From the NCBI GenBank assembly GCA_902557655.1, contig CACEAZ010000008.1, positions 1-62,678 of the forward strand: a DNA stretch of 62,678 nt, read 5' to 3'. The DNA is from an uncultured Bacteroidota bacterium (GTDB lineage: Bacteria > Bacteroidota > Bacteroidia > Flavobacteriales > Flavobacteriaceae). A model generated the notes under the pieces. The model was not told where the DNA came from and did no database searches. It saw only the letters and a list, made by a program, of their open reading frames with translations. Below are positions 17,099 to 28,601 of the stretch, piece by piece; position 1 is the first letter of the stretch; every line of letters starts with the position of its first letter. Position numbers and translations under genes: made by a program.

Positions 17099-17133
17099 TA
17101 ATTATGCCCATAAATTTTAACCAAAAATGTGTT

Positions 17134-17190
17134 GAACTATCAATGTCCGTATTTATTGCTTGTCAAACCCTAGATAACTTACTATCTTTA
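17134..17190 (+). repeat. Diverged copy of the 5' leader repeat
   Basis: Begins GAACTATCAATGTC and continues with TTGCTTGTCAAACCCTA, resembling the leader repeats at 18631 and 22181 (roughly three quarters identical by eye). It ends about 37 bases before the lipoprotein gene at 17228. Confidence 0.5.
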
Positions 17191-17227
17191 TTAAAATCAG
17201 AAATTATAAATATTTAAAATTAACAAT

Positions 17228-17713
17228 ATGAAAAAAATAATATCTTTTACAATAATTGCCACACTATTATATAGTTGTAATATAGAAGAGCCCAATCCTG
17301 AAAAATCTTTTGATGAAGTAAGTAATTTCATTTCAAATCAATTTGATTTTTTTACTAATAGCAGTTTAGAGCAAGCAAAAAATACATTTTCTAATGATGC
17401 TGTTTTAATCGGAACAGATGAAGCAGAATACCTGAGTGGTTGGAGTGAAATTGAACCTTCAATAGTTGGACAACTAGCAATTAAAAACCCTAAATTCGAA
17501 ACCAGAGATTTGAATATTATAATGAGTAATAGCGGGGATATGGCTTCTTATACACAACTTTTAGATTTCACTTTTACCGTTGGTGAAGATTCAGGAGAAA
17601 TCAATAATGTTAGAAATAGTGGAGTAGTCAAGAAAATTAACGGGGAATGGAAAGTTGTCCAAATTCATTGGTCAATTGGAGTTCAGGGACAAGCAGTAGA
17701 ATATGACTACTAG
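17228..17713 (+). CDS. NTF2-like (SnoaL) lipoprotein
   Basis: 161-aa lipoprotein (lipobox YSC, Cys17). It has the NTF2-like pattern: a helix with FDFFTNSSLEQAKNTFSNDAVLIGTD and a C-terminal strand NGEWKVVQIHWSI. It is a distant relative of the lipoprotein at 6430. The stop overlaps the next gene by 11 bases. Upstream lies a diverged copy of the leader repeat seen at 18631 and 22181. Confidence 0.65.
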   Translation: MKKIISFTIIATLLYSCNIEEPNPEKSFDEVSNFISNQFDFFTNSSLEQAKNTFSNDAVLIGTDEAEYLSGWSEIEPSIVGQLAIKNPKFETRDLNIIMSNSGDMASYTQLLDFTFTVGEDSGEINNVRNSGVVKKINGEWKVVQIHWSIGVQGQAVEYDY

Positions 17714-18092
17714 AATTTTTAAAAAAACCATTTTACTTCAAATTTTTATTTTTCTTTCCTTAATTATTTTGGCCATATTAGAGGAGTCATTAGTGCAGAA
17801 TGAAGAAGTTCCTTTGAATTTTAGCATTATTGAGGGAATTGTGTTCTTATTCATTATTGTGTTGTTACCATTTATGTGGTATTTCTTATACAAACTAAAA
17901 CCTATTGGTAAAAGGTTATTTATATTTTATCTTATTTTAGGCGCTATTAGTTATTTTGTAATATCGGATGATTCATATGTTCTTACAAGCTTAACCCCTT
18001 TTTTAGAATTTGGTGAAAATGCATTGATACTTTTAGATGGTGTAATTTTAGCATTTTTATTTTTCACAGATGTAAAAGAAAATTTTGAATAA
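17703..18092 (+). CDS. Membrane protein of unknown function
   Basis: 129-aa protein with four hydrophobic segments (about residues 9-26, 45-62, 75-90 and 104-121). It overlaps the NTF2-like lipoprotein gene by 11 bases, so is co-translated with it. I recognise no family. Confidence 0.5.
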   Translation: MTTRIFKKTILLQIFIFLSLIILAILEESLVQNEEVPLNFSIIEGIVFLFIIVLLPFMWYFLYKLKPIGKRLFIFYLILGAISYFVISDDSYVLTSLTPFLEFGENALILLDGVILAFLFFTDVKENFE

Positions 18093-18095
18093 TTT

Positions 18096-18272
18096 ATGGT
18101 TAAGTTCTTCTTAAAACTTCTTAAATATCTACTAAAATTTATCGATGATTTGCCTGTAATCGGTGCTGCTAGAAAATTTGCAGAAAAAAATTTAGAAATT
18201 ACATTAAGCGTAGTCTTTATTATATTTCTTATTTATTCACTATATATATTTAAAAAACAGAAAAAGAAATGA
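18096..18272 (+). CDS. Small membrane protein (58 aa)
   Basis: 58-codon frame beginning MVKFFLKLLKYLLKFIDDLP, an amphipathic basic segment, then one span (ITLSVVFIIFLIYSLYIF) and a Lys-rich tail. It starts three bases after the previous stop, and its TGA overlaps the next ATG (ATGA). Probably the last securely coding member of the 17228 operon. Confidence 0.5.
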   Translation: MVKFFLKLLKYLLKFIDDLPVIGAARKFAEKNLEITLSVVFIIFLIYSLYIFKKQKKK

Positions 18273-18397
18273 AAAAGCTCAAAATAAAAATATTATATTA
18301 TTGTTCGAGATTAGTTGTATATGGGTTATATTTTGATATAAGTCTAAGCAGAAAACTTTTTAAGAAAGATTTAAGGATTCATATTCTTCAAATATGA
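18269..18397 (+). CDS. Possible small basic protein (42 aa)
   Basis: 42-codon frame starting within ATGA of the previous gene (MKKLKIKILYYCSRLVVYGL). It is basic and has no clear membrane span. It ends in an ATGA overlap with an 11-codon frame (MKKLNKFFTNL) that is probably a remnant. Coding status is uncertain. Confidence 0.25.
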   Translation: MKKLKIKILYYCSRLVVYGLYFDISLSRKLFKKDLRIHILQI

Positions 18398-18410
18398 AAA
18401 AGCTAAATAA

Positions 18411-18429
18411 GTTTTTTACTAACTTGTAA
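18411..18429 (+). repeat. Short intergenic repeat, copy 1
   Basis: GTTTTTTACTAACTTGTAA, matching 17 of 19 bases at 20271-20289. Both lie about 22 bases before an ATG. It may include a weak -7 box (TAACTTGT). Confidence 0.4.
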
Positions 18430-18499
18430 ATAAATTAAACAACTAATATTATGAAAAGCTATTTTAAATTTTACTTGGTTAGGAATTAAAAACTTAAAA

Positions 18500-18622
18500 A
18501 TGAAAAATAAAGATCTAAAAAATAATTTATCACAAACAATTTCTAAAGAACTAAAAAAGCCTAATGGGGGCAATAAGAAACTTATTGATACACTTCAAAA
18601 GATTTTGGATAAGCTTTCATAA
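18500..18622 (+). CDS. Possible small soluble protein (40 aa)
   Basis: 40-codon frame: MKNKDLKNNLSQTISKELKK, then a helical, basic C-terminal half (KKLIDTLQKILDKL). No hydrophobic segment. It may be a real small gene or a remnant; no family is recognised. Confidence 0.3.
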   Translation: MKNKDLKNNLSQTISKELKKPNGGNKKLIDTLQKILDKLS

Positions 18623-18630
18623 TTAACTTG

Positions 18631-18686
18631 CGAACTATCAAAGTCTACATTTCTTGCTTGCTAAATCCTAAACAACTAATTCCCTT
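18631..18686 (+). repeat. 5' leader repeat, copy 2
   Basis: About 55 bases beginning CGAACTATCAAAGTCTACAT. It matches 22181-22236 at 46 of the first 50 positions and 17134-17190 more distantly. It lies 26 bases upstream of the ATG at 18712. All three copies precede genes for exported proteins, so it may be a shared promoter or leader. Confidence 0.65.
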
Positions 18687-18711
18687 TAGATACATTAAAC
18701 AACTAAAAACT

Positions 18712-19425
18712 ATGAAAAAAGTACTTTACCTATTTACAGTGTTATTATTTTGTTCTAACACATACTCTCAAAAACAAGCTATTGAAAAACTAACATATGA
18801 AGAAGCTAATAATATTGACTATTTTATTAAAGTCAAAAACAATACAAAAGTTTTTGAGTATATAACTCAGGACGGAAATAGTTTGAAAGTAGGAGATACA
18901 CTTGTTTTAGGTAGACCAACCTCTGAATCTTCGATTTCAACAACCTATGGTGGTGGTGCTTCTACAGCTGGTATTAGTGCGGGTGGCGCAAGAACAAAAA
19001 CACGGGTTAATAAGGAATTTGAATTTATTAGATTAGGAAGGCCTGCAGGCTTTGGTAATGTAATGTCTGCAATGAATGGTGAAGGTGCAAGTATGGCGGG
19101 TGTAAATTTGGCAGGAGAAGTTGTCAAAATCGACGAAATAAAAGTTGCTCATAAAGGATCTAAGAAGAAGCCCTTACGTTTAATCCTAATTATGGGTGAG
19201 ATAAATGGAAGGGCTTTTGGAATAAATAAATATCTAAGTGTCCTTGATACTGACCTTGCAATGTCATATGGTGAGATACTATTAAAGAATAGAAAAATGA
19301 CGAGGGATGAGGCAATTGCAAAACTTAAAGAAGCAAAAGATTTAATGGACTTAGGACTTATGTCTGAGGAAGAATTCAAAGCGATGAGAAGCGAATTACA
19401 GCCTTTGATAATGGGTAAAAACTAA
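18712..19425 (+). CDS. Exported protein with C-terminal SHOCT-like domain
   Basis: 237-aa protein. The ATG at 18712 was chosen because it gives a clean signal peptide (MKKVLYLFTVLLFCSNTYSQ); a longer frame from 18628 would translate the leader repeat. The middle part is Gly/Ala-rich (YGGGASTAGISAGGARTKT). The last 40 residues (MTRDEAIAKLKEAKDLMDLGLMSEEEF in part) form a SHOCT-like motif, a short helical module of unclear role. The protein at 24384 ends in a similar motif. Confidence 0.65.
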   Translation: MKKVLYLFTVLLFCSNTYSQKQAIEKLTYEEANNIDYFIKVKNNTKVFEYITQDGNSLKVGDTLVLGRPTSESSISTTYGGGASTAGISAGGARTKTRVNKEFEFIRLGRPAGFGNVMSAMNGEGASMAGVNLAGEVVKIDEIKVAHKGSKKKPLRLILIMGEINGRAFGINKYLSVLDTDLAMSYGEILLKNRKMTRDEAIAKLKEAKDLMDLGLMSEEEFKAMRSELQPLIMGKN

Positions 19426-19438
19426 ACAACTAAACCCT

Positions 19439-19591
19439 ATGCTATCTATATACAACTTTCTTAAAATCAAGCTATGTTACAGAACTTATTGGAAGCAATG
19501 GTTAGCATTTATAATGATATGTGTAATACTTTATCTTTGGGCAGAACTTGGTGTGGGTATTTTCTTTCAAGATAGTTGGGGTGGTGATTAA
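19439..19591 (+). CDS. Small membrane protein (50 aa)
   Basis: 50-codon frame: MLSIYNFLKIKLCYRTYWKQ, then one span (WLAFIMICVILYLWAELGVGIFF) and an acidic tail. It starts 13 bases after the SHOCT-like gene. No family is recognised. Confidence 0.4.
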   Translation: MLSIYNFLKIKLCYRTYWKQWLAFIMICVILYLWAELGVGIFFQDSWGGD

Positions 19592-19597
19592 AACAAT

Positions 19598-19711
19598 ATG
19601 AAAAAACTACCAAATTGGGCTAAACTTATTATCGTTGTTATTGGATTAGCAATTGGATATAAATTTGGTTATGCTGTTATGAATTGGTTATTGGACTTAC
19701 TAAACTTTTAA
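19598..19711 (+). CDS. Small membrane protein (37 aa)
   Basis: 37-codon frame: MKKLPNWAKLIIVVIGLAIG and a second hydrophobic half. It starts six bases after the 50-aa gene. Its first residues MKKLP match the 50-aa protein at 21363 (MKKLPK). No family is recognised. Confidence 0.4.
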   Translation: MKKLPNWAKLIIVVIGLAIGYKFGYAVMNWLLDLLNF

Positions 19712-19715
19712 AAAA

Positions 19716-19731
19716 GAAAAAGCTAATACTA
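19716..19731 (+). repeat. Orphan fragment of the signal-peptide repeat
   Basis: GAAAAAGCTAATACTA, 16 bases identical to positions 3-18 of the repeated signal-peptide DNA (see 24384), but located between two convergent genes and not encoding a signal peptide. Confidence 0.6.
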
Positions 19732-20172
19732 CATCCATCTTCTTGTTTTAGCCTTATATAGCGAATATTCTTTGCCAAATTTTTCTGTAAGGAAAATCTC
19801 TTCTCTTTTAATTTGAAATCTATTTATCCAAAAATAAAAAAAGATAGGTGTTGTAATTGAGAAAATATTCAAATAGAATAATGATGTTGATGTAACAATC
19901 ATCAACAAACCTAAATACATTGGATTTCTTGAATATTTATAGATTCCCGTTGTTATAAGTTTGTTAACTTTTTTAAACTTTATTGGATCAATTGTAGTTT
20001 TTGATTTTATAAACTTAAAAATTGGATTAATTAAAATAAGTATCCCAATTAAAAGTATAAGAATAGATATTAAGTCTTGATTTGGTAAATGAATTAAATC
20101 AATTTTTTTAGACGAAAAATAATTAGCAACAACTAAAATCAGAACTAATACAGGGGGTGGTATTTTTAACAT
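19729..20172 (-). CDS. Isoprenylcysteine carboxyl methyltransferase-like membrane protein
   Basis: 147-aa integral membrane methyltransferase of the ICMT/PEMT type. The diagnostic C-terminal part is intact: TGIYKYSRNPMYLGLLM (around residues 86-102) and REEIFLTEKFGKEYSLYKAKTRRW at the end. Substrates in bacteria are unknown. It is convergent with the small genes upstream and is the only long minus-strand gene besides 21609 within the array region. Confidence 0.8.
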   Translation of the reverse strand: MLKIPPPVLVLILVVANYFSSKKIDLIHLPNQDLISILILLIGILILINPIFKFIKSKTTIDPIKFKKVNKLITTGIYKYSRNPMYLGLLMIVTSTSLFYLNIFSITTPIFFYFWINRFQIKREEIFLTEKFGKEYSLYKAKTRRWM

Positions 20173-20241
20173 TTTTTAAATATCAGTTTAATGGTTCTTA
20201 ATTAAAATAATGAATTTTTTATAAATCAAGCATTTAATATA

Positions 20242-20256
20242 TAGAGTAACATACGA
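20242..20256 (+). repeat. ORF-less copy of the ACATACGAT box
   Basis: AGAGTAACATACGATAAG lies here with no adjoining start codon; the same GAGTAACATACGAT box directly precedes the ATG at 21175. This suggests that the box can be separated from the gene it normally precedes. Confidence 0.45.
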
Positions 20257-20270
20257 TAAGCCATAAACAA

Positions 20271-20289
20271 CTTTTTCACTAACTTGTAA
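20271..20289 (+). repeat. Short intergenic repeat, copy 2
   Basis: CTTTTTCACTAACTTGTAA, 17 of 19 bases as at 18411-18429, 22 bases upstream of the lipoprotein ATG at 20312. Confidence 0.4.
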
Positions 20290-20311
20290 TAACCAACCTT
20301 AAAAAATCATT

Positions 20312-20656
20312 ATGAAAAATCTTTTTATTTTATTATCATTTTTAATTTTATTTCAAAGTTGTTTTAGTTACAAATCTGTGAATTATGATACTATTTCAAG
20401 CGATGATAAAAAACAAAAGATTCAAGTTGAAATGCTTGACAGAACAAAATTTAGCGGTCAATTGGTTTCTAAAGATGACAAAACAATGACTTTAGAAAAT
20501 AATGGAAGCACACAAACGATTCTTAAGAAGGATATTTACGAAGTCAAAGTTGTGAAATTTTCAATACTTAAAACTCTTGGTAATACTGCTAAAGGAGGTG
20601 CTTGGATAGCAGCCGCAGCAGGGATGTATATTCTTATTTCTTTATTAGGAGTATAA
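20312..20656 (+). CDS. Lipoprotein with C-terminal membrane segment
   Basis: 114-aa lipoprotein (lipobox LFQSC). The middle resembles an Sm-like/SH3 strand set (QVEMLDRTKFSGQLVSKDDKTMTLENNG), then a C-terminal hydrophobic stretch (AAAAGMYILISLLG). The signal peptide DNA here is not the repeated type. It is followed 11 bases later by the TonB-like gene. Confidence 0.55.
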   Translation: MKNLFILLSFLILFQSCFSYKSVNYDTISSDDKKQKIQVEMLDRTKFSGQLVSKDDKTMTLENNGSTQTILKKDIYEVKVVKFSILKTLGNTAKGGAWIAAAAGMYILISLLGV

Positions 20657-20667
20657 AAACCATAAAT

Positions 20668-20705
20668 TTGAAAAAGCTAATACTATTACTATTTATTCCA
20701 CTTGT
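20668..20705 (+). repeat. Signal-peptide repeat copy A
   Basis: 38 bases encoding MKKLILLLFIPLV (first base T, giving a TTG start). 37 of 38 positions agree with copies C, E, F and H. Confidence 0.9.
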
Positions 20706-21138
20706 CTCTTTTGGGCAATCTAAAATTGAAAATAATTCTAAACTACCCTCTGAAATAATTGATAATATTCCAGTTTATCCTGGATGTAAAGGAAGTGAGT
20801 TAAAAAAGAGAAAATGTATGTCTGAAAGAATCGCGAAATTTGTGGAAAGAAAATTTAATACTGATATAGCTGAAGATTTAGGGCTAACTAGGAGACAACG
20901 TATTAGCGTTATATTTAAAATTGATACTTTGGGGAATATTACTGGTGTTAGAGCAAGAGCTCATCATCCAAGGTTAGAACAAGAAGCTGTAAGGGTAATA
21001 AATTTATTACCAAAAATGAAGCCTGGAATTAAAAATGGTAAACCTGTAATTGTTCCTTACTCTATACCGATAATATTCCAAGTAAAAGAAAAGAAAAAGA
21101 AAAAGAAAATACTAAAACCAGCTTATCTTGACTGGTAA
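20668..21138 (+). CDS. TonB C-terminal domain protein (energy transducer-like), exported
   Basis: 156-aa protein. The TTG at 20668 is preferred over an upstream frame from 20602 because it starts exactly at the repeated signal-peptide DNA and yields MKKLILLLFIPLVSFGQ. The rest matches TonB C-terminal domains of flavobacteria: VYPGCKGSELKKRKC, KFVERKFNTDIAEDLGL, ISVIFKIDTLGNI and VINLLPKMKPG. It lacks the usual N-terminal membrane anchor and Pro-rich spacer, so may be periplasmic rather than a classical TonB. Confidence 0.75.
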   Translation: MKKLILLLFIPLVSFGQSKIENNSKLPSEIIDNIPVYPGCKGSELKKRKCMSERIAKFVERKFNTDIAEDLGLTRRQRISVIFKIDTLGNITGVRARAHHPRLEQEAVRVINLLPKMKPGIKNGKPVIVPYSIPIIFQVKEKKKKKKILKPAYLDW

Positions 21139-21145
21139 ACCAACA

Positions 21146-21177
21146 CATAAAATAATCAAAGAGTAACATACGATATG
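21146..21177 (+). repeat. Cassette-boundary repeat, left copy
   Basis: 32 bases beginning CATAAAATAATCAAAGAG and ending at the ATG of the 63-aa gene. 29 of 32 bases recur at 21565-21596, so the two copies bracket the two small genes between them. Confidence 0.7.
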
Positions 21178-21366
21178 AAAAATCTTTTAGAATTAAGTTT
21201 AAAATCTACATTTGTTGCTTATATAGTAAGTGCTTTTGATATTATTGGAGGGTTTGAAATGCATTTAAATCCATTAGATTGGAACCAAAGAAAATTAATA
21301 TTATTTGTGGTGTTTTTTATATTAACTGCAGTTATAGAAAGTTTCTTTATTAAAAAGAAAAAATGA
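21175..21366 (+). CDS. Small membrane protein (63 aa)
   Basis: 63-aa protein with two hydrophobic segments (about 11-28 and 41-57) and a Lys-rich end. Directly preceded by the ACATACGAT box. Its TGA overlaps the ATG of the next small gene (ATGA). No family is recognised. Confidence 0.5.
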   Translation: MKNLLELSLKSTFVAYIVSAFDIIGGFEMHLNPLDWNQRKLILFVVFFILTAVIESFFIKKKK

Positions 21367-21515
21367 AAAAGCTACCTAAAATTGCGTTATTCGGAATACT
21401 TGTTCAATCTGCAGGGCTGATATATGGGATTGTAAATAAAGCCGATGACATAATTATAATGTGTCTAATTTTTATGTTTGTATCTTGCTTACCCTTATTT
21501 GATAAGAAAAAATGA
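21363..21515 (+). CDS. Small membrane protein (50 aa)
   Basis: 50-codon frame: MKKLPKIALFGILVQSAGLI, a second span (IIIMCLIFMFVSCLPLF) and a Lys tail. Both ends are ATGA overlaps: with the 63-aa gene before and with a 9-codon remnant (MKKALIFSI) after. No family is recognised. Confidence 0.45.
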   Translation: MKKLPKIALFGILVQSAGLIYGIVNKADDIIIMCLIFMFVSCLPLFDKKK

Positions 21516-21564
21516 AAAAGGCACTTATATTCTCAATCTAACAGACGGCACAAATACCTCAACT

Positions 21565-21596
21565 CATAAAATAATCAAATAGTAAGAAACGATATG
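21565..21596 (+). repeat. Cassette-boundary repeat, right copy
   Basis: CATAAAATAATCAAATAG and following bases, 29 of 32 identical to 21146-21177. Here the ATG that ends the repeat opens no lasting frame (stop after two codons). Confidence 0.7.
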
Positions 21597-21608
21597 CCTG
21601 TGATTTAG

Positions 21609-22073
21609 TTATCGCCTAACGTACCCGCCAATAGATTCTCTATATTCTATTTCAAACCCATTTTCTTTCGTAAACTTTTTGAATTCATCTGTTGCATTAC
21701 CTATTGTTAAAAATGATTCTATTTCAAAGATTTCAAAAAATCTATTGAAATTTGGGCCATTGATAAAATCTATTCCGTGTTGGATACCATCATCACTATT
21801 ATTATACCTTTCAATTAAAGTTACTTTTTTACCGTTTTCAGAGATGAAATAACCGTAAACAGTTGATGGCTCTCTTTCAACAATAAAATTAGAAAGTTCC
21901 TGAGTAAATGCCTCAACATCAACTCTTGAGTTATTTTTAGTGTTCAATTCTAAAATAAAAGTAATTTCTGAAGATTTAGAGTTGTCTAAAACCTTAACTT
22001 CTTTAGATTTTATATCAGTATTACAAGCAGTAAAAGTCATTGTAAATAACAGTACAAATAGTAATTTTTTCAT
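21609..22073 (-). CDS. Lipoprotein, antibiotic-biosynthesis-monooxygenase-like
   Basis: 154-aa lipoprotein (lipobox FTAC, Cys17). The mature part resembles ferredoxin-like ABM folds (ITFILELNTKNN...FTQELSNFIVEREPSTVYGYFI...LIERYNNSDDGIQH). Such domains usually act as small dimers; the assignment is tentative. It runs against the direction of the array. Confidence 0.5.
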   Translation of the reverse strand: MKKLLFVLLFTMTFTACNTDIKSKEVKVLDNSKSSEITFILELNTKNNSRVDVEAFTQELSNFIVEREPSTVYGYFISENGKKVTLIERYNNSDDGIQHGIDFINGPNFNRFFEIFEIESFLTIGNATDEFKKFTKENGFEIEYRESIGGYVRR

Positions 22074-22080
22074 AATTAAA

Positions 22081-22173
22081 TTGGTTTATAATTCAAATAT
22101 AAGAAAGGCAAATATAATTTTAGGGGTTTTATTATTTATTGCTATTCTGCTTCTATTATTGAAAAACATATAG
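22081..22173 (+). CDS. Possible tiny membrane protein (30 aa)
   Basis: 30-codon frame with TTG start (LVYNSNIRKANIILGVLLFI in one-letter form, then more hydrophobic residues). One span. It opens 8 bases from the start of the divergent lipoprotein at 22073. Weak evidence only. Confidence 0.2.
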   Translation: MVYNSNIRKANIILGVLLFIAILLLLLKNI

Positions 22174-22180
22174 CAACATA

Positions 22181-22236
22181 CGAACTATCAATGTCTACAT
22201 TTCTTGCTTGTTAAATCCTAAACAACTCATTACCTT
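22181..22236 (+). repeat. 5' leader repeat, copy 3
   Basis: Begins CGAACTATCAATGTCTACAT; 46 of the first 50 bases match 18631-18686. It overlaps the end of an ACATACGA box (22174-22182) and lies about 60 bases before the ATG at 22297. Confidence 0.65.
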
Positions 22237-22296
22237 GTAGGTAAACTTAAAAACTAATTAAAAATGGAAAGAAGAAAAGACTAACTAACATACGAT

Positions 22297-22674
22297 ATGA
22301 AAAAATTACTGATACTATTACTATTTATTCCACTTCTTTCATTTAGTCAAACTTTTGAATTGACCAATGGTCAGAGTATGTGTATGATTGGTAAAGGTAT
22401 GGGGCAAGATGCAACAATAAACCCATATGCTAATGAAGAGTTTTCATATGCTTTAATAGAAAATATTGGTACAGTTAAATTTAACATTAGAGTGGAATCT
22501 ATTGAAAAAGAAAGAAGGGAGTTTATAATAAAACCAAAGGATATAGTTGTGGTTAAACTCTACAGAAATAATATTTTATATTTTGATTCTTTAACAGTTG
22601 AAAAAGCTGAAGCAAAAATAAAGTATACGATAAACGAGAATGAACTTCCACCACCACCATCACCTGTTAAATGA
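22297..22674 (+). CDS. Exported protein of unknown function
   Basis: 125-aa protein with signal peptide (MKKLLILLLFIPLLSFSQ). The mature part is beta-rich (FELTNGQSMCMIGKGMGQ...YALIENIGTVKFNIRVES) and ends with a Pro run (ELPPPPSPVK). Its signal-peptide DNA is the diverged copy B of the repeat, preceded by the ACATACGAT box. Its stop overlaps the next start (ATGA). Confidence 0.55.
   Translation: MKKLLILLLFIPLLSFSQTFELTNGQSMCMIGKGMGQDATINPYANEEFSYALIENIGTVKFNIRVESIEKERREFIIKPKDIVVVKLYRNNILYFDSLTVEKAEAKIKYTINENELPPPPSPVK
22312..22335 (+). repeat. Signal-peptide repeat copy B (partial)
   Basis: 24 bases identical to the central part of the repeat (encoding ILLLFIPL), with a divergent first part carrying one extra codon. 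Confidence 0.75.
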
Positions 22675-22708
22675 AAAAGCTAATACTATTACTATTTATT
22701 CCACTTGT
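22671..22708 (+). repeat. Signal-peptide repeat copy C
   Basis: 38 bases, full match, starting at the ATG that overlaps the upstream TGA. Confidence 0.9.
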
Positions 22709-23012
22709 ATTTAGCTGTAGTGATGATTCAAATGAAATTAGTGTGCCTGAAAATTCAATTTGCATTGAATTAAGAATTGGTGAATATTATGCTGAAGATG
22801 GATCAAACAAAATTATTCTTCCAAACGAAATTGATGGCAGATTTGATTGGGGACAAGAACAAGATGGGGAAATTGTAATGTATGGATTTATAACTCAAAA
22901 CAATTGTGAATTAGATTTTACGGATACTTGGGGTAATTGGATTTTAACATTAACGGATAATGGAAATATATTGTCAGAGGACGGAAGTAAAATATATTAT
23001 TATATTGATTAG
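22671..23012 (+). CDS. Lipoprotein of unknown function
   Basis: 113-aa lipoprotein: MKKLILLLFIPLVFSC, where the repeated signal segment is followed by a lipobox Cys. The mature part is acidic with SIYYYID-like strands (CIELRIGEYYAEDGSN, FDWGQEQDGEIVMYGFI). No family is recognised. It starts in an ATGA overlap with the previous gene. Confidence 0.55.
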   Translation: MKKLILLLFIPLVFSCSDDSNEISVPENSICIELRIGEYYAEDGSNKIILPNEIDGRFDWGQEQDGEIVMYGFITQNNCELDFTDTWGNWILTLTDNGNILSEDGSKIYYYID

Positions 23013-23034
23013 ATAAATTAAACCAACATACGAT

Positions 23035-23205
23035 ATGAAAAAGTATTTATGGGCAATTACAATTTTAATAATATTTGTTAACGCTTATTTCTTGTTTTTT
23101 ACAGAAGATTGGATTTATGGAGAATATATAAACCTTGCAGCTGCAATAGCAATGATTTGGTTAGGTGTTACTGATATTTCTAAGAATAAAGATTCTAAAT
23201 CATAA
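23035..23205 (+). CDS. Small membrane protein (56 aa)
   Basis: 56-codon frame: MKKYLWAITILIIFVNAYFL, a loop, a second hydrophobic segment (INLAAAIAMIWLGV) and a charged tail. Directly preceded by the full 15-base box AAACCAACATACGAT. No family is recognised. Confidence 0.5.
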   Translation: MKKYLWAITILIIFVNAYFLFFTEDWIYGEYINLAAAIAMIWLGVTDISKNKDSKS

Positions 23206-23208
23206 TTA

Positions 23209-23233
23209 ATGAAAAAGCTAATACTATTACTAT
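23209..23233 (+). repeat. Signal-peptide repeat copy D (truncated)
   Basis: First 25 bases of the repeat, encoding MKKLILLL and then running into TGA. It is joined directly to the ATG of the next small gene (23232). It encodes no useful protein by itself. Confidence 0.85.
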
Positions 23234-23387
23234 GAAAGAATCAAAAATATCTATAGGTGCAGGCATAGGATTGCTTGCAGGAATTATAATTGGAAGTGCT
23301 ACTGATAATGTTGGTTTATGGATTGCGTTAGGTTTATGCTTTGGTGCAGGTATTGGAACTGTATTTGAAAAAAAAAATACTAAATGA
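23232..23387 (+). CDS. Small Gly-rich membrane protein (51 aa)
   Basis: 51-codon frame: MKESKISIGAGIGLLAGIII, then a second Gly-rich span (LWIALGLCFGAGIGTVF). The GxxxG spacing suggests a glycine-zipper pair of helices. It overlaps the truncated repeat copy D at its start and copy E at its end (both ATGA). Confidence 0.5.
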   Translation: MKESKISIGAGIGLLAGIIIGSATDNVGLWIALGLCFGAGIGTVFEKKNTK

Positions 23388-23421
23388 AAAAGCTAATACT
23401 ATTACTATTTATTCCACTTGT
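23384..23421 (+). repeat. Signal-peptide repeat copy E
   Basis: 38 bases, full match, beginning at the ATG that overlaps the upstream TGA. Confidence 0.9.
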
Positions 23422-24370
23422 GTTTAGCTGCAACGGGGCAACTAAATATAGTAATGAATATGAGCTGATTGAAAATTGGATGAAAATTCCTGTCGATTAT
23501 GTTTTTGGAAATCCTACGGGGCTTGCATTGAATTCGAGTCAGAATTTAGTAGTTTACCATAGGGGGTCAAGATCTTGGCAAGTGCCTATGCCAAAAGAAA
23601 AAATAATGGAGGACACCTTTGTCGAAATAGATAAAATTTCAGGAGAAATAATTAAATCTTGGGGCTCAGATCTTTTTATAATGCCTCACGGATTAGAAAT
23701 TGATAATGAGGATAATATTTGGATAACAGATGTCGGTTTACATCAGGTAATTAAATATGATTCTGACGGAAATGAATTAATGGTGCTTGGGGAAGAAAAT
23801 ACTCCGGGTAATGATTCATTACACTTTAACTTGCCTACGGACATAGCTGTGTCAGAAAATGGATCTTTTTATGTAAGTGATGGTTATGGAAATAGTAGAA
23901 TAGTTAAGTTTTCATCTGCAGGAGAATATTTGCTTGAGTGGGGTGTGTTTGGAGAAAATAAAAATGAATTTAATATTCCTCACGGCTTAGACTTGGATAA
24001 AGAAGGGAATGTTTATGTCGCCGACAGAGAAAATAATAAGATTCAAAAATTTGACTCATTAGGAAACTTTATCGGTGAATGGAAAAATGATGTAATTGGA
24101 CAATTATATTCTGTTAATATTAATAATTATGATAACCACCTTTTTGGAATTGATTATATAGGAATCGAAAATTTAGTCCCTGTAGGTTCAGATATTATCA
24201 AGTTTGATCTTGATTTAAATTTAAAATCAAAGTTTGGTAGAAGCGGAAACTATAATGGACCTAAAACAAGATACCACGATATTCAAGTTGACAATAAAGG
24301 AAATCTATATGTGGGGGATATTCTAAATAATACTGTTCAAAAGTTTAAACCAATTAAAACGTTAGATTAA
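23384..24370 (+). CDS. Lipoprotein of the peptidyl-alpha-hydroxyglycine amidating lyase (PAL)-like NHL family
   Basis: 328-aa lipoprotein (repeat-encoded signal ending LVFSC). The rest is a six-bladed NHL propeller. It resembles PAL: NPTGLALNSSQNLVVYHRGS, LFIMPHGLEIDNEDNIWITD, LHQVIKYD, FNIPHGLDLDKEGNVYVADR and YHDIQVDNKGNLYVGD, with the blade His residues that bind zinc in PAL kept in PHG motifs. In animals PAL finishes C-terminal amidation of peptides; no hydroxylating (PHM) partner is seen in this window, so the bacterial function is open. Confidence 0.7.
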   Translation: MKKLILLLFIPLVFSCNGATKYSNEYELIENWMKIPVDYVFGNPTGLALNSSQNLVVYHRGSRSWQVPMPKEKIMEDTFVEIDKISGEIIKSWGSDLFIMPHGLEIDNEDNIWITDVGLHQVIKYDSDGNELMVLGEENTPGNDSLHFNLPTDIAVSENGSFYVSDGYGNSRIVKFSSAGEYLLEWGVFGENKNEFNIPHGLDLDKEGNVYVADRENNKIQKFDSLGNFIGEWKNDVIGQLYSVNINNYDNHLFGIDYIGIENLVPVGSDIIKFDLDLNLKSKFGRSGNYNGPKTRYHDIQVDNKGNLYVGDILNNTVQKFKPIKTLD

Positions 24371-24383
24371 ACCAACATACGAT
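24369..24383 (+). repeat. Upstream box AAACCAACATACGAT
   Basis: 15-base box immediately before the ATG of 24384. Identical copies lie at 23020-23034 and 25231-25245; shorter or diverged forms precede 21175, 22297 and 26185. Confidence 0.85.
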
Positions 24384-24421
24384 ATGAAAAAGCTAATACT
24401 ATTACTATTTATTCCACTTGT
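24384..24421 (+). repeat. Signal-peptide repeat copy F
   Basis: 38 bases, full match. With the upstream 15-base box the conserved block is 53 bases (24369-24421). Confidence 0.9.
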
Positions 24422-25232
24422 CTCCTTTGGGCAAGGAAGTTATTGTGATGGGTATAAAGCAGGTTTGGCAGAAGCAGAAAAAGTATATATATGCGTGGCA
24501 GGAGTAGCTAACTGTGGTGTTCCCCCAAGCGGAGGCAATAATTATTCTACAGGTTATGGCGAGGGCTATGCTGCTGCTGAAAGAATTTGTAATAAGAGAA
24601 GATTGGAAAGAGAGGAAAAGGAAAGAGAGGAAAAAAGAAAAAATAATACTTCATCAAGTATTCCCTCTGCTCAAATTGATTGGGATAAAATTTATCCAAA
24701 AACTCCTCGACCTGATTATAGTAAAAGTTATGAGGAAAATGAAAAGTTTTTAAAAAGTATTGGTTGGGCAGGGTTTGAAAAAGAAGAGGAAGTAGTTGAA
24801 GAAGAAAAAATATCAGAAACAAGAACCATCTATATTAATAATTCAGAGGAGGTAAATGATTTAAGAAAAGAGATTATAAAACTAAAATCCGAAAATATAA
24901 AGTTAAAAAATGATGTTAAGAAAATTAACAACAAGGTGAATTCAAATATGACAATGGATGTTTTAGGTGGAGTTAGTGTTAATAGTATGAAAAAGATGCT
25001 GAATAACAATAAAAAAACAAATGCTTTAGGTGGGCTAAGCATTAGTGAAATAAACACTTTATTTTCAGACATAAAAAATTTAAATGATGATTCTCTTTAC
25101 ATAGACACAGTTGATTTTAAAGATACTATTGATAAACTCAAAAAATTAAAAGAACTAATTTCTAAAGGAATAATTACCAAAGAGTCTTACGACTATAAAA
25201 TTGATGAATTAAAAAAGATCTTATTAGACTAA
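24384..25232 (+). CDS. Exported coiled-coil protein with SHOCT-like C-terminus
   Basis: 282-aa protein with the repeated signal peptide ending in SFGQ. Residues 20-65 hold a Cys/Gly-rich segment (YCDGYKAGLAEAEKVYICVA...GYGEGYAAAERIC) with paired Cys likely to form disulfides. A charged helix (LEREEKEREEKRK) and a coiled coil (about 150-190) follow, and the last 60 residues read like a SHOCT module (LKKLKELISKGIITKESYDY). A similar end occurs in the protein at 18712. Function unknown. Confidence 0.6.
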   Translation: MKKLILLLFIPLVSFGQGSYCDGYKAGLAEAEKVYICVAGVANCGVPPSGGNNYSTGYGEGYAAAERICNKRRLEREEKEREEKRKNNTSSSIPSAQIDWDKIYPKTPRPDYSKSYEENEKFLKSIGWAGFEKEEEVVEEEKISETRTIYINNSEEVNDLRKEIIKLKSENIKLKNDVKKINNKVNSNMTMDVLGGVSVNSMKKMLNNNKKTNALGGLSISEINTLFSDIKNLNDDSLYIDTVDFKDTIDKLKKLKELISKGIITKESYDYKIDELKKILLD

Positions 25233-25245
25233 ACCAACATACGAT
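25231..25245 (+). repeat. Upstream box AAACCAACATACGAT
   Basis: Exact copy of the 15-base box immediately before the ATG of 25246. Confidence 0.85.
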
Positions 25246-25277
25246 ATGAAAAAGCTAATACTATTACTATTTATTCC
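25246..25277 (+). repeat. Signal-peptide repeat copy G
   Basis: First 32 bases match exactly; the end diverges (IPYVIFAQ in place of IPLV). Confidence 0.85.
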
Positions 25278-26172
25278 GTATGTAATATTTGCTCAAGACT
25301 TCAAGATTGAACATAAAGTGAACGATGATAAAACTGTTGATTTTTCGTATAAAAACTTGAGCCCAAATACAATCACAGTGATAGTCAATTTTAGTTTTTT
25401 AGAAAATACTATGAGCTCGACAAGAGTAGTTGAAAAGGTGTCAAAACCTGAGGGAAAGCTATTTAAACTAAAGCCTATGAATAACGAACAAAATATAGGC
25501 TTTAATTATTCTTATTTGTTTTTTAATAATAATATAAATCCAAAAGTAGATGATAACTTTGTTTATATATTGCCATATAAAAAAGAAACACCAATGTTTG
25601 TAGAGGAGCTTTCTTACTTAGGCTCAACCTACTCAAACAAAGAAGAACCAAAAGGTTGGAAATCTTACTCATTTTCAAGCGATGAAGTTCAAAAAATATT
25701 TGCTGTAAGAAAAGGTGTTGTTATTGATGTTGTTAGAGACTACGATGTTGATACAACAAAAACATTCACATATTATAACAAAATGAACTCCGTTAAAATA
25801 GAGCATAATGATGGTACATTAGCTTTATACTCAGGATTTAATAAAGATGAAATATACGTCAATGTTGGAGATATAGTATATCCAAAATATAATACACTTG
25901 GAAAAACAGAAGTTTATGATGCAAGGAAAAAACACAGAATCAATTTTTCTTTATTCTATTATTCAACAAAAAAAGGTGTAAAATTATCGAGTCTATTTAA
26001 AAACGATCAAACGGAAGTAATCTATATAACGCCAACTTTTTATCAAAATGGTGAGTCTGTAAACTTGAAGAAAGATTTTTTTTATGAATCAGATTATGAT
26101 GACAAGACACTATTTCAGAACCTTAGTAAAAGACAAATCAAAAAATATAAAAAAGGAAACTTAGTATTATAA
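25246..26172 (+). CDS. Exported degenerate M23 (LytM)-like protein
   Basis: 308-aa protein with signal peptide. Residues 25-110 look like a beta-sandwich domain. Residues 145-250 follow the course of a LytM/M23 peptidase: YSFSSDEVQKIFAVRKGVVI, VKIEHNDGTLALYSGF, VNVGDIVYPKYNTLGKTE and an ending KKHRINFSLFYY. The metal ligands are missing: the first His-x3-Asp site is gone and the final HLHF is replaced by KHRINF. It is probably a non-catalytic binding or regulatory protein. Confidence 0.6.
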   Translation: MKKLILLLFIPYVIFAQDFKIEHKVNDDKTVDFSYKNLSPNTITVIVNFSFLENTMSSTRVVEKVSKPEGKLFKLKPMNNEQNIGFNYSYLFFNNNINPKVDDNFVYILPYKKETPMFVEELSYLGSTYSNKEEPKGWKSYSFSSDEVQKIFAVRKGVVIDVVRDYDVDTTKTFTYYNKMNSVKIEHNDGTLALYSGFNKDEIYVNVGDIVYPKYNTLGKTEVYDARKKHRINFSLFYYSTKKGVKLSSLFKNDQTEVIYITPTFYQNGESVNLKKDFFYESDYDDKTLFQNLSKRQIKKYKKGNLVL

Positions 26173-26184
26173 CAAACATAAGAT

Positions 26185-26222
26185 ATGAAAAAGCTAATAC
26201 TATTACTATTTATTCCACTTGT
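26185..26222 (+). repeat. Signal-peptide repeat copy H
   Basis: 38 bases, full match, preceded by a diverged box (AACAAACATAAGAT). Confidence 0.9.
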
Positions 26223-26553
26223 TTTTGCTTGTAGTAGTGGTGGTGATAATTCTGAAACTTCATACACCTTAAGACTAACAGAAAACTATGATAGAATAGC
26301 GTTCCAACAAGTTCAACTCCCGGGATATAATTTTGAGATGGATGGACAAACTGATATGATTTTTAATCTTAATCAGGGTATGCCTAATGGAACCGCTGAT
26401 GTAAAGGTTACGCTAACTTACTATTGTACTGTGAATGGTGTGATTGTGAACAGAGATGTATACGTAAACTTCTTTGAAAATTTAACTACTCTTATCAATG
26501 TTGAGAGTGTTATAACTTGTGGTATTGTTACTACTGTTACTATATTAAACTAA
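26185..26553 (+). CDS. Lipoprotein of unknown function
   Basis: 122-aa lipoprotein (MKKLILLLFIPLVFAC). The mature part is beta-rich (YTLRLTENYDRIAFQQVQLP...VKVTLTYYCTVNGVIVNRDV). It is the last gene of the array; no family is recognised. Confidence 0.55.
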   Translation: MKKLILLLFIPLVFACSSGGDNSETSYTLRLTENYDRIAFQQVQLPGYNFEMDGQTDMIFNLNQGMPNGTADVKVTLTYYCTVNGVIVNRDVYVNFFENLTTLINVESVITCGIVTTVTILN

Positions 26554-26570
26554 GCTGCCCTTTAATTAAA

Positions 26571-26592
26571 GAGTGCCAAATGAGTGCCAACT
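26571..26592 (+). repeat. Tandem 11-base direct repeat
   Basis: GAGTGCCAAAT followed directly by GAGTGCCAACT, 10 of 11 bases identical. Adjacent short repeats of this size are found at integrase arm sites, but no integrase gene is in the window. Confidence 0.55.
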
Positions 26593-26630
26593 TTTAGTAT
26601 ATTTATATATCGTTCTTTATAAAGTGCTGT

Positions 26631-26666
26631 AAAAAAAGAAGCCCCCGATTTCTCGAAGGCTTTTAT
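26631..26666 (-). terminator. Rho-independent terminator
   Basis: On the minus strand the arms AAGCCTTCGA and TCGGGGGCTT pair over ten positions (two G-T pairs) around a GAAA tetraloop, followed by CTTTTTTT. It would end transcripts arriving from the CDF transporter gene. Confidence 0.8.
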
Positions 26667-26688
26667 CTGAGTAGTGTAGCGGTTTCGC

Positions 26689-26699
26689 TTGCTCCCCCT
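26689..26699. repeat. Copy of the tRNA-Asn 3' end (possible att site)
   Basis: TTGCTCCCCCT, identical to 28525-28535 at the 3' end of tRNA-Asn (which reads on the minus strand). Beyond it the T-arm resemblance is weak. The two copies bracket 1.8 kb with the CDF transporter and acetolactate decarboxylase genes. Confidence 0.4.
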
Positions 26700-26941
26700 A
26701 TTATTCAAAGTTGCAACACAATTTCTTCTTTTAACGACCCACTCGCCTTGGACGATATCCGTTTCTCCTTCATTAAGAATATTAAGGTATCGTTTTAAAC
26801 CTCCTTTAATTTTGAAGGAAGTGGATTGATGAAATCGTTGGTTTCTAATTTGTAGTTAACGGTCTTTGTAAATAAACACAAACCTATCGGAAAACCTTTG
26901 CTAGCTAAATTTTATAGACGTTATTGTAAGTAGTGCTTCGT

Positions 26942-27736
26942 TTACTTGCTCAATTTCAGTATTCGAAATGCACCTTGAATTACCAACACAAAAACGATTG
27001 TTCCTATAATCAAGTCAGGTTTATTGGAACTCAACCAATTTACCAAAATTCCTGCAAATATTACTCCTAAATTGATAATCACGTCATTCGAGGTGAAAAT
27101 CATACTTGCTTTCATATGTGCTTCTTCTTTGCTCTTTGACTTTTGCAAAATATAAAGACAAAACCCGTTTGCTATAAGTGCAAAAATCGAAACGATAATC
27201 ATTGTCGAAAAATTGGGGAGTTTCTCGTCTCCGAAAAATCTTCTTAATACTTCTAAAAATCCAATAATCGCAAGTGTTATTTGAAAATATCCAGCAAGTT
27301 TTGCTATCCGTTTTTTCTTAATTAAAGTTCCCCCTACGGCAAACAAACTAATTCCGTAAACGAAACTGTCGGCAAGCATATCTAAACTGTCGGCAACAAG
27401 TCCCATTGACTTAGAGATAATTCCTGTTGTTATTTCAATTATGAAAAACGTAAAATTTATAGCAAGTACAGACCAAAGTAGTTTTTTTTGGTTTGAATTT
27501 TCTTTAAATTCTGTTTGGTCAGTTTGTTCGGTCGAGATTTTCTTTCCGCCTAAATTTAGTTCGATAATAGACTTTTCGATTTGGTGAATTTCTCCGCAGT
27601 GAAAAACAGTCAATTTTCGGTTGAGAATATCAAATTCTAAATTTGCAATACTTGAGATCCCGTCTAATTTCATTCGGATTAGATTTTCCTCTGATGGACA
27701 GTCCATTTTGGTGATTTCAAATATTGTTTTTTTCAT
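26942..27736 (-). CDS. Cation diffusion facilitator transporter with N-terminal HMA-like domain
   Basis: 264-aa inner-membrane metal transporter. Residues 1-70 resemble a heavy-metal-associated domain (IFEITKMDCPSEENLIRMKL) but with a single Cys in place of CxxC. Spans follow from about residue 87, with the CDF metal site motif SMGLVADSLDMLADSFVYG (Asp residues on two turns). The usual cytoplasmic C-terminal domain is missing. This short form is common on mobile elements of Bacteroidota. Codon use (more CGA, TCG and GTC) differs from neighbours, suggesting transfer. Zn, Co or Cd are likely substrates. Confidence 0.75.
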   Translation of the reverse strand: MKKTIFEITKMDCPSEENLIRMKLDGISSIANLEFDILNRKLTVFHCGEIHQIEKSIIELNLGGKKISTEQTDQTEFKENSNQKKLLWSVLAINFTFFIIEITTGIISKSMGLVADSLDMLADSFVYGISLFAVGGTLIKKKRIAKLAGYFQITLAIIGFLEVLRRFFGDEKLPNFSTMIIVSIFALIANGFCLYILQKSKSKEEAHMKASMIFTSNDVIINLGVIFAGILVNWLSSNKPDLIIGTIVFVLVIQGAFRILKLSK

Positions 27737-27764
27737 TCGATTTGTTTGTTTTCAGACGATAAAA

Positions 27765-28466
27765 TTACTTTGAAACTTTTATGGTAACGTTAGAAGAATT
27801 AAAGTCAAGTTCATCGATATGCCCCAATACTTGACGATCGTCGGAAATAAAGTGCGCATGGAAAAAACTATCATGATGGGTGAAAACAGCCTTATGATGG
27901 CGAGAAAAGAAACCAATTAAAGATCCGCTAATACCATTCAACTCATATTGAGTTAATCCTTGGTGAGCTTCATCTGGTGATGACACTTGCTTACCCTCAG
28001 GTAAATTAACACTATGAAGTTTCATTTTATTAAAAACCCCATCAATACGTATCAACAAAGGTTGGTCATAATTTTTATAAACTGAATCAATCTGTTCTTC
28101 TATTTCTTTTAGCGAGTAATTATCAAGAGTAAGTTCAACAACTTTTAAATCACTATTTGTGCTGTATACAAAAAAGGGAGCCCTGACTGAGGGGATTTTA
28201 GTTACCTGATGAGAAACACTATCAATAACCTTCGATACATATGTTTGTCCTTCAAATACTACTATTTCTCCCTTCAAAAACTCAATAGGTCCTAATCCAT
28301 AGGTTTCCTTGTTATTTAATGAATCTGTTGCAATCTTACCTTTTAAATCTCCTTTCCACATCACATCTCTCATTTCACCAACAACCTTTATAGAGGAAGT
28401 GTTAGTCGATTTAGTACATGAGACAAACAGAAGCACGCAAAAGATGTAAATAATATTTTTTAACAT
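27765..28466 (-). CDS. Lipoprotein acetolactate decarboxylase
   Basis: 233-aa lipoprotein (ATG at 28466 chosen, giving MLKNIIYIFCVLLFVSC with lipobox FVSC; the longer frame starts inside a terminator hairpin at 28481). The remainder fits alpha-acetolactate decarboxylase: GPIEFLKGEIVVFEG, RIDGVF, LIGFFS and the metal site HAHFISDDR followed by GH. The two zinc His in HxH and the third His after GG/LG are present. It would decarboxylate acetolactate to acetoin outside the cytoplasm. It is 28 bases upstream of the CDF gene. Confidence 0.78.
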   Translation of the reverse strand: MLKNIIYIFCVLLFVSCTKSTNTSSIKVVGEMRDVMWKGDLKGKIATDSLNNKETYGLGPIEFLKGEIVVFEGQTYVSKVIDSVSHQVTKIPSVRAPFFVYSTNSDLKVVELTLDNYSLKEIEEQIDSVYKNYDQPLLIRIDGVFNKMKLHSVNLPEGKQVSSPDEAHQGLTQYELNGISGSLIGFFSRHHKAVFTHHDSFFHAHFISDDRQVLGHIDELDFNSSNVTIKVSK

Positions 28467-28480
28467 GCTGTAAAAATACA

Positions 28481-28513
28481 AAAACGGCTACACTATAAAA
28501 GTATAACCGTTTT
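28481..28513 (-). terminator. Terminator after tRNA-Asn
   Basis: 33 bases forming a 13-bp stem (arms AAAACGGTTATAC and GTGTAGCCGTTTT, two G-T pairs) and a 7-base loop, followed by T-rich sequence. It lies 15 bases beyond the tRNA 3' end on the minus strand. Confidence 0.8.
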
Positions 28514-28527
28514 ATCATTATAAGTTG

Positions 28528-28601
28528 CTCCCCCTCTAAGACTCGAACTTAGGACCCTCTGATTAACAGTCAGATGCTCTAACCAACTGAGCTAAGGAGG
28601 A
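28528..28601 (-). tRNA. tRNA-Asn (GTT)
   Basis: 74 bases folding as a full cloverleaf: acceptor arms TCCTCCT and AGGGGGA (one T-G pair), D-arm with AGCTCAGTTGGT, anticodon loop CTGTTAA with anticodon GTT, and T-loop GTTCGAGTC. Discriminator base G. CCA is not encoded. A clear terminator follows. Confidence 0.95.

Follow-up and report, generated by a model that had tools for sequence, protein, structure and literature searches.

The Vpma system of Mycoplasma is the closest known case to the gene arrangement described here. In its published account, the 5′ untranslated and signal-peptide DNA of the vpma, vsp and vsa loci (Xer1, Mbr, HvsR) is conserved between the lipoprotein genes of a locus, recombination at the 5′ ends links differing mature parts, and the vpma locus is depicted with a tRNA gene (PMC2268961). 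We find a comparable conservation of 5′ and signal-peptide DNA on several genes per locus in a window of 62,678 nt (the whole stretch of DNA analysed; contig CACEAZ010000008.1, assembly GCA_902557655.1, from an uncultured Bacteroidota bacterium of the Flavobacteriaceae) and in its relatives, the shared element being a short DNA segment with a start codon and the code for an export signal (signal peptide). The Mycoplasma loci hold one gene family, an expression-switching DNA inversion, a recombination site that precedes the start codon (-1 to -72) and a recombinase gene (PMC2268961), whereas the flavobacterial arrays carry unrelated genes and direct copies of the segment and appear to undergo exchange between species, and no recombinase clearly of that kind was found for them. 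Integron cassette arrays resemble the present arrays in their one-way layout, small promoter-poor cassettes, common joint and quick turnover, and differ in that here the joint overlaps the coding start, no integron integrase scores above the cut-off in 21 genomes and no attC-like fold is found. Islands at tRNA genes, including tycheposons, likewise hold variable genes at a tRNA and, in some members, a tyrosine integrase; the present locus adds a layer of cassettes, bordered by a shared connector, inside the island. PARCEL repeats (PMC2996958) are also a DNA module for part of membrane-targeted proteins, apparently spread by transfer or shuffling, but they are palindromic tandem repeats with a 25-residue motif and not a start-and-signal segment. 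A literature search found the arrangement undescribed in titles and abstract openings, a coverage that leaves out most subscription journals and does not show absence in print.

We propose, with moderate confidence, that the locus is a tRNA-Asn island of cassettes in which common 5′ ends would serve as homology connectors, giving new genes a start codon and an export signal. Between many cassettes, the connector consists of a cassette end (often a stop codon with ACCAACATACGAT) followed by ATGAAAAAGCTAATACTATTACTATTTATTCC, with which the following gene starts and encodes its signal peptide, and comparative alignments show that it behaves as a DNA-level border common across species, at which homology switches and which unrelated mature genes bear. 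An earlier note, made from the letters of this DNA alone, had claimed that one segment recurs at nine places in the window, and this is borne out at every one of them. The 38-mer is exact at 22671, 23384, 24384 and 26185, has one mismatch at 20668 and three at 25246, all on the + strand, and reaches a maximum of 0 occurrences in 100 dinucleotide-preserving shuffles of the window. The 16-mer GAAAAAGCTAATACTA occurs 8 times (0 in the shuffles), including an orphan at 19716-19731 and a truncated copy at 23211-23226, and a partial copy at 22300-22337 has 7 mismatches. Throughout the 1.39-Mb assembly (81.7% complete), a 22-mer allowed up to 3 mismatches is found at 7 places, each within this cluster.

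The copies, all on the + strand, open genes with dissimilar products. The copy at 20668..20705, with a TTG start, begins gene 20668-21138, where the TonB-like domain suggested earlier is a TonB_C match (Pfam, 6.6e-9), and the exact copy at 23384..23421 begins a lipoprotein gene (23384-24370) whose propeller is confirmed as an NHL propeller (1.6e-28). The copy at 25246..25283, with its three mismatches at the right end, begins gene 25246-26172, in which the M23 domain claimed in the earlier note has a match, albeit below the family cut-off (E 0.0043). A coiled-coil gene (24384-25232) follows the exact copy at 24384..24421; the SHOCT domain claimed for it has no match there, and a SHOCT match below cut-off (E 0.0016) lies in 18712-19425 instead. 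The remaining gene starts are a divergent, partial copy at 22297..22337 (gene 22297-22674), an exact copy at 22671..22708 whose ATGA overlaps the stop of the preceding gene (lipoprotein gene 22671-23012) and an exact copy at 26185..26222 (lipoprotein gene 26185-26553); Pfam searches of these three genes gave zero matches. The truncated copy (23209..23233) reads MKKLILLL and a stop, and this TGA shares bases with the ATG that opens the small gene behind it (MKESK...); the last bases of the orphan piece (19716..19731), CTA, are the stop TAG of the minus-strand gene 19729-20172.

The segment recurs across the genus and is not merely local. Among 21 genus genomes (completeness 56-86%), its 30-base core is exact in 17 and present in 20 at up to 3 mismatches. 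A sample of 397 genomes from the family contains it in 6, half of which (3) belong to the same genus, and another genus has it in 3 of 6 genomes. An 84,980-species collection contains the exact core in 35 stretches, titled uncultured Bacteroidetes, Flavobacteriaceae, Flavobacteriales and one Ulvibacter. We take these stretches to be marine, and those with AG- names to be single cells, in which case a common assembly artefact is unlikely. The exact 30-mer has 0 matches in viral contigs, and a phage origin was rejected, megablast of 17100-28600 against phage records having returned 4 records that match only at the tRNA and the propeller protein having no match among phage records. An RNA family was also rejected, the tRNA alone reaching a family threshold in the window.

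That the DNA itself recurs, on unrelated mature genes and with truncated and non-coding copies, is also supported by its codon choice, which over 11 codons has a probability of about 2.5e-6 under the codon usage of the window, so that identical copies cannot plausibly have arisen independently. Selection on an RNA or peptide function of the segment (translation start, small-RNA target or export), with no recombination, would also conserve DNA, and most long copies do open real open reading frames (ORFs): the other 20 genus genomes supplied 20 array stretches, from 16 of them and with some copies on further contigs omitted, and these together with the window hold 113 copies at up to 6 mismatches; of their 113 sites with GAAAAAGCTAA, 76 lie before ORFs of at least 40 aa, 36 before shorter ORFs and 1 lacks a start codon. 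Similar conservation is, however, absent from signal peptides elsewhere in the genome: of 86 signal-like ORF starts outside the island, sampled from 426 kb (380 kb, or 27%, of the same genome plus the window flanks), 0 come as close as 3 mismatches to a neighbour when 32 nt are compared, the nearest-neighbour mismatches having a minimum of 5 and a median of 10. With pieces of the segment recurring untranslated at a minus-strand gene end and an array-end element, and homology changing on both sides of it, we regard such selection as very improbable.

Mature families also occur with and without the segment, labelled as present at up to 6 mismatches over 32 nt, which agrees with the earlier claim that unrelated mature genes are joined to it. 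The counts with and without are 10 and 6 for a Kazal-like family, 5 and 4 for a CIA30-like family, 1 and 10 for YKSVNYD, and 1 and 1 for an acetolactate-decarboxylase-like family, besides others. The best Kazal-like tree has 2 signal changes and 0 of 200 bootstrap trees have 1, though no well-supported branch forces more than one; these trees, weak as they are, suggest more than one signal change in the family. The CIA30-like tree also has 2 changes (a single change in 21% of its bootstrap trees), and that of YKSVNYD is uninformative. In 100 orthologous pairs with the segment, divergence is 0.062 over the first 11 codons, a figure that the segment label itself depresses, and 0.180 over the mature part, the N-terminal value being the lower in 86 pairs; 556 pairs with ordinary hydrophobic N-termini give 0.226 and 0.235, respectively. 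Gene conversion within a genome, which the earlier note had entertained, finds no support, copies on unrelated genes differing by 0.063 within a genome (125 pairs) and by 0.059 between genomes (2549 pairs); this near equality points to a pool common to the genus.

The arrays lie at a tRNA gene. According to ARAGORN, the array ends downstream with a tRNA-Asn in the window (GTT anticodon, 28527..28601, - strand), in ten fetched loci (L104, L107, L108, L109, L110, L114, L116, L117, L120 and L122; L denotes array loci and G genomes) and in L140 and L143, the extensions for G407 and G411, with the same polarity in 13 of 13 genomes. One array (L121) has tRNA-Ala instead, and no tRNA was found in the fetched DNA of L105, L106, L111, L112, L113, L115 and L118, where several stretches run up to the end of their contig. 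As expected of a tRNA island, variable DNA lies at the tRNA between conserved flanks: in the relative G408, the flanks match those of the window with 92.4% identity over 4,236 and 93.6% over 2,299 aligned positions, while within the island some blocks are common and their order is changed. This comparison supports turnover of the gene set between relatives rather than the same genes in the same order. Over 11 tRNA-Asn loci (55 pairs), gene families overlap by a mean of 0.07 on the array side, compared with 0.44 towards the tRNA flank, and of 20 neighbouring family pairs that both islands of a comparison contain, 4 are still adjacent.

Inspection of six blocks shared with G408 places 5 of 12 ends in ATGAAAAA(G/A)CTA-type sequence in both genomes (the MTTRIF end, the IYNF end, the LPNW start, the LPNW end and the IPPP start), and a sixth (the IYNF start) in such sequence in G408 only; the remaining ends do not lie in it. 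A ATGAAAAAGCTAA piece lies at 18394..18406 (+), and homology with G408 stops exactly behind it. Across the arrays, alignments arriving at a segment copy go no further in 273 of 281 cases when they come from the left and in 317 of 325 when they come from the right (97-98%), compared with 304 of 433 and 355 of 481 at other gene starts (70-74%) and 4 of 296 and 5 of 292 inside genes (1-2%); the alignments are not independent, and the rates therefore form a contrast rather than a test. An unbiased search for k-mers enriched at alignment ends recovers the joint and the segment.

Turnover is a known property of islands at tRNA genes and favours an account in which unspecific insertion and deletion operate at an ordinary tRNA island and the segment is a passive relic carried along with genes. 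Such turnover would fit the other array starts, which are also breakpoints, and the integrase-borne inserts present at this tRNA. It fits less well with the excess of breaks at segment starts over other starts, and the base-level joints against G408 lean the other way; moreover, duplication alone cannot yield unrelated mature parts, and families with both kinds of signal require joints at the segment. We consider ordinary turnover by itself improbable.

The anatomy of the arrays is strictly polar. At up to 4 mismatches, the 21 array loci contain 97 copies, all of which (97 of 97) point the same way as the others of their locus and are thus direct copies; counts of GAAAAAGCTAA are 113 on the array strand and 0 on the opposite strand, and those of the joint motif CAACATACGA, which lies upstream of many copies, are 65 and 0, respectively. 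In the window, the joint motif AACATACGAT is found at 20248..20257 and again at 21165, 22287, 23025, 24374 and 25236, always on the + strand and never on the - strand. The connectors of a locus all face the tRNA, with some intervening genes on the other strand. The left edge of the segment is the start codon, and 11 of 55 long copies close, through their ATGA overlap, an upstream ORF that is 40 aa or longer. The downstream side runs into unrelated sequence and its edge is ragged, exact runs at the 113 GAAAAAGCTAA sites spanning 11-36 nt and peaking at lengths of 31 nt (15 sites) and 36 nt (23 sites). Pieces of the segment, as read from their positions, act as DNA borders beyond their role as protein parts. 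At the end of a minus-strand gene family, seen at 7 places, a GAAAAAGCTAA piece stands directly before 4 (the window, L117, L118 and L120) and not before 3, and an array-end element, AGAGTGCC, lies directly behind GAAAAAGCTAA in L107, L120, L121 and L122, other sequence preceding it in several loci. The earlier description of a reused signal-peptide segment holds as far as it goes and is too narrow, since the upstream motif CAACATACGA, borders that have no part in export and the tRNA-Asn island belong to the feature as well.

In the mechanism we envisage, RecA-type homologous recombination at connectors would swap, insert and delete cassettes as DNA of relatives arrives, and shorter stretches such as ATGAAAAA(G/A)CTAA would sometimes seed exchange. 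More rarely, a new gene would be fused, at a new position, to the right end of a connector, which would supply it with a start codon and an export signal; useful secreted or lipoprotein fusions would be retained and the rest would persist as non-coding debris. We infer the RecA type because the connector is nearly identical everywhere, and the ragged right end fits homology-driven or occasional illegitimate joints, not a single fixed crossover base. The main rival to homologous exchange is a dedicated enzyme, a site-specific recombinase (Xer-type, an island tyrosine integrase or another) that would use the joint CAACATACGAT-ATGAAAAAGCTAA for insertion in one direction, like Xer1 or IntI. The uniform orientation of connectors, the sharp left edge at the start codon and the TGCC words of the array-end element directly behind GAAAAAGCTAA in the four loci named above would suit such an enzyme, as would the tyrosine integrases that G408 and G407 carry next to the tRNA end; the ragged right edge would not. 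Matches to the integron integrase TIGR02249 are above cut-off in 0 of 21 genomes (below it in 21 of 21, and likewise in 14 of 14 control genomes), and folding at the connector is no better than in shuffles (z +0.32; complement +0.71), no dedicated attC search having been made; membership among integrons is not supported by these two results. In 18 of 21 genomes there are only one or two tyrosine-recombinase matches, presumably XerC and XerD; near arrays, G403 has matches below cut-off and genomes other than G408, G407 and G403 have none. A dedicated enzyme is, in our judgement, unlikely.

Several observations weigh against homologous exchange at connectors. The evidence is wholly comparative and no recombination event was observed, and the strict one-way orientation would also be compatible with a site-specific enzyme. 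In the G408 comparison, 7 of 12 block ends lack the connector in one or both genomes. Other starts that begin with ATGAAAAA break at 88% and the remaining starts at 55-64%; such frequent breakpoints at other array starts mean that the effect is partly not specific to the segment. Finally, the N-terminal codons are not the less diverged in 14 of the 100 orthologous pairs, and in 2 of 11 families the means are reversed.

A fuller reading, which we put forward only tentatively, is that of an integrase-free cassette system in which a genus-wide connector would combine recombination homology, a stop/start joint and an export signal, such that genes would be secreted on arrival. If true, bacteria would have in it a counterpart of exon shuffling that acts on signal peptides, and it would show that a cassette array can operate with no dedicated integrase even where genomes are very small. 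The origin of export signals in new secreted proteins is usually invisible because signal peptides diverge fast; the DNA of this segment is still nearly identical, and joining events are therefore readable base by base and countable across natural genomes.

Inserts lie beside the array, and the tRNA-end repeats and the integrase have been seen with these inserts and not with the array itself. In the window, an insert of about 1.8 kb (26689..28535) with cation-efflux and acetolactate-decarboxylase-like genes lies between direct repeats TTGCTCCCCCT (26689-26699 and 28525-28535), which repeat the tRNA-Asn end, and has no integrase; the homologue of its acetolactate-decarboxylase-like gene in L104 bears the segment. 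In G407, an integrative element at the tRNA-Asn (L140:680-9533) adjoins the cassette array, in the order tRNA-Asn 3′ part (5 mismatches in 38 nt against the intact tRNA), tyrosine integrase, ResIII-type gene and intact tRNA. In G275, which has a tRNA-Asn array too, the same array end, a connector with the TGCC-repeat element, adjoins the tRNA-Ala (L121:11440-11700, in reverse-complement orientation). The array-end element of the window, AGAGTGCCAAATGAGTGCC, is at 26570..26587 (+). A recurrent block, presumably promoter-like by the flavobacterial consensus, lies at 22175..22236 (+), again at 18625-18686 and, at 69%, at 17127-17188; such blocks are elsewhere found directly behind the joint motif, CAACATACGA preceding two of them as well as other genes that start with ATGAAAAA. 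The sequence TATTCGCA(T/C)CACACAAAAAGAAT.GGTTTGATTG recurs shortly behind connectors, with slightly different joints, at L104:3480, L107:14569, L114:11665, L118:13160 and L119:17932.

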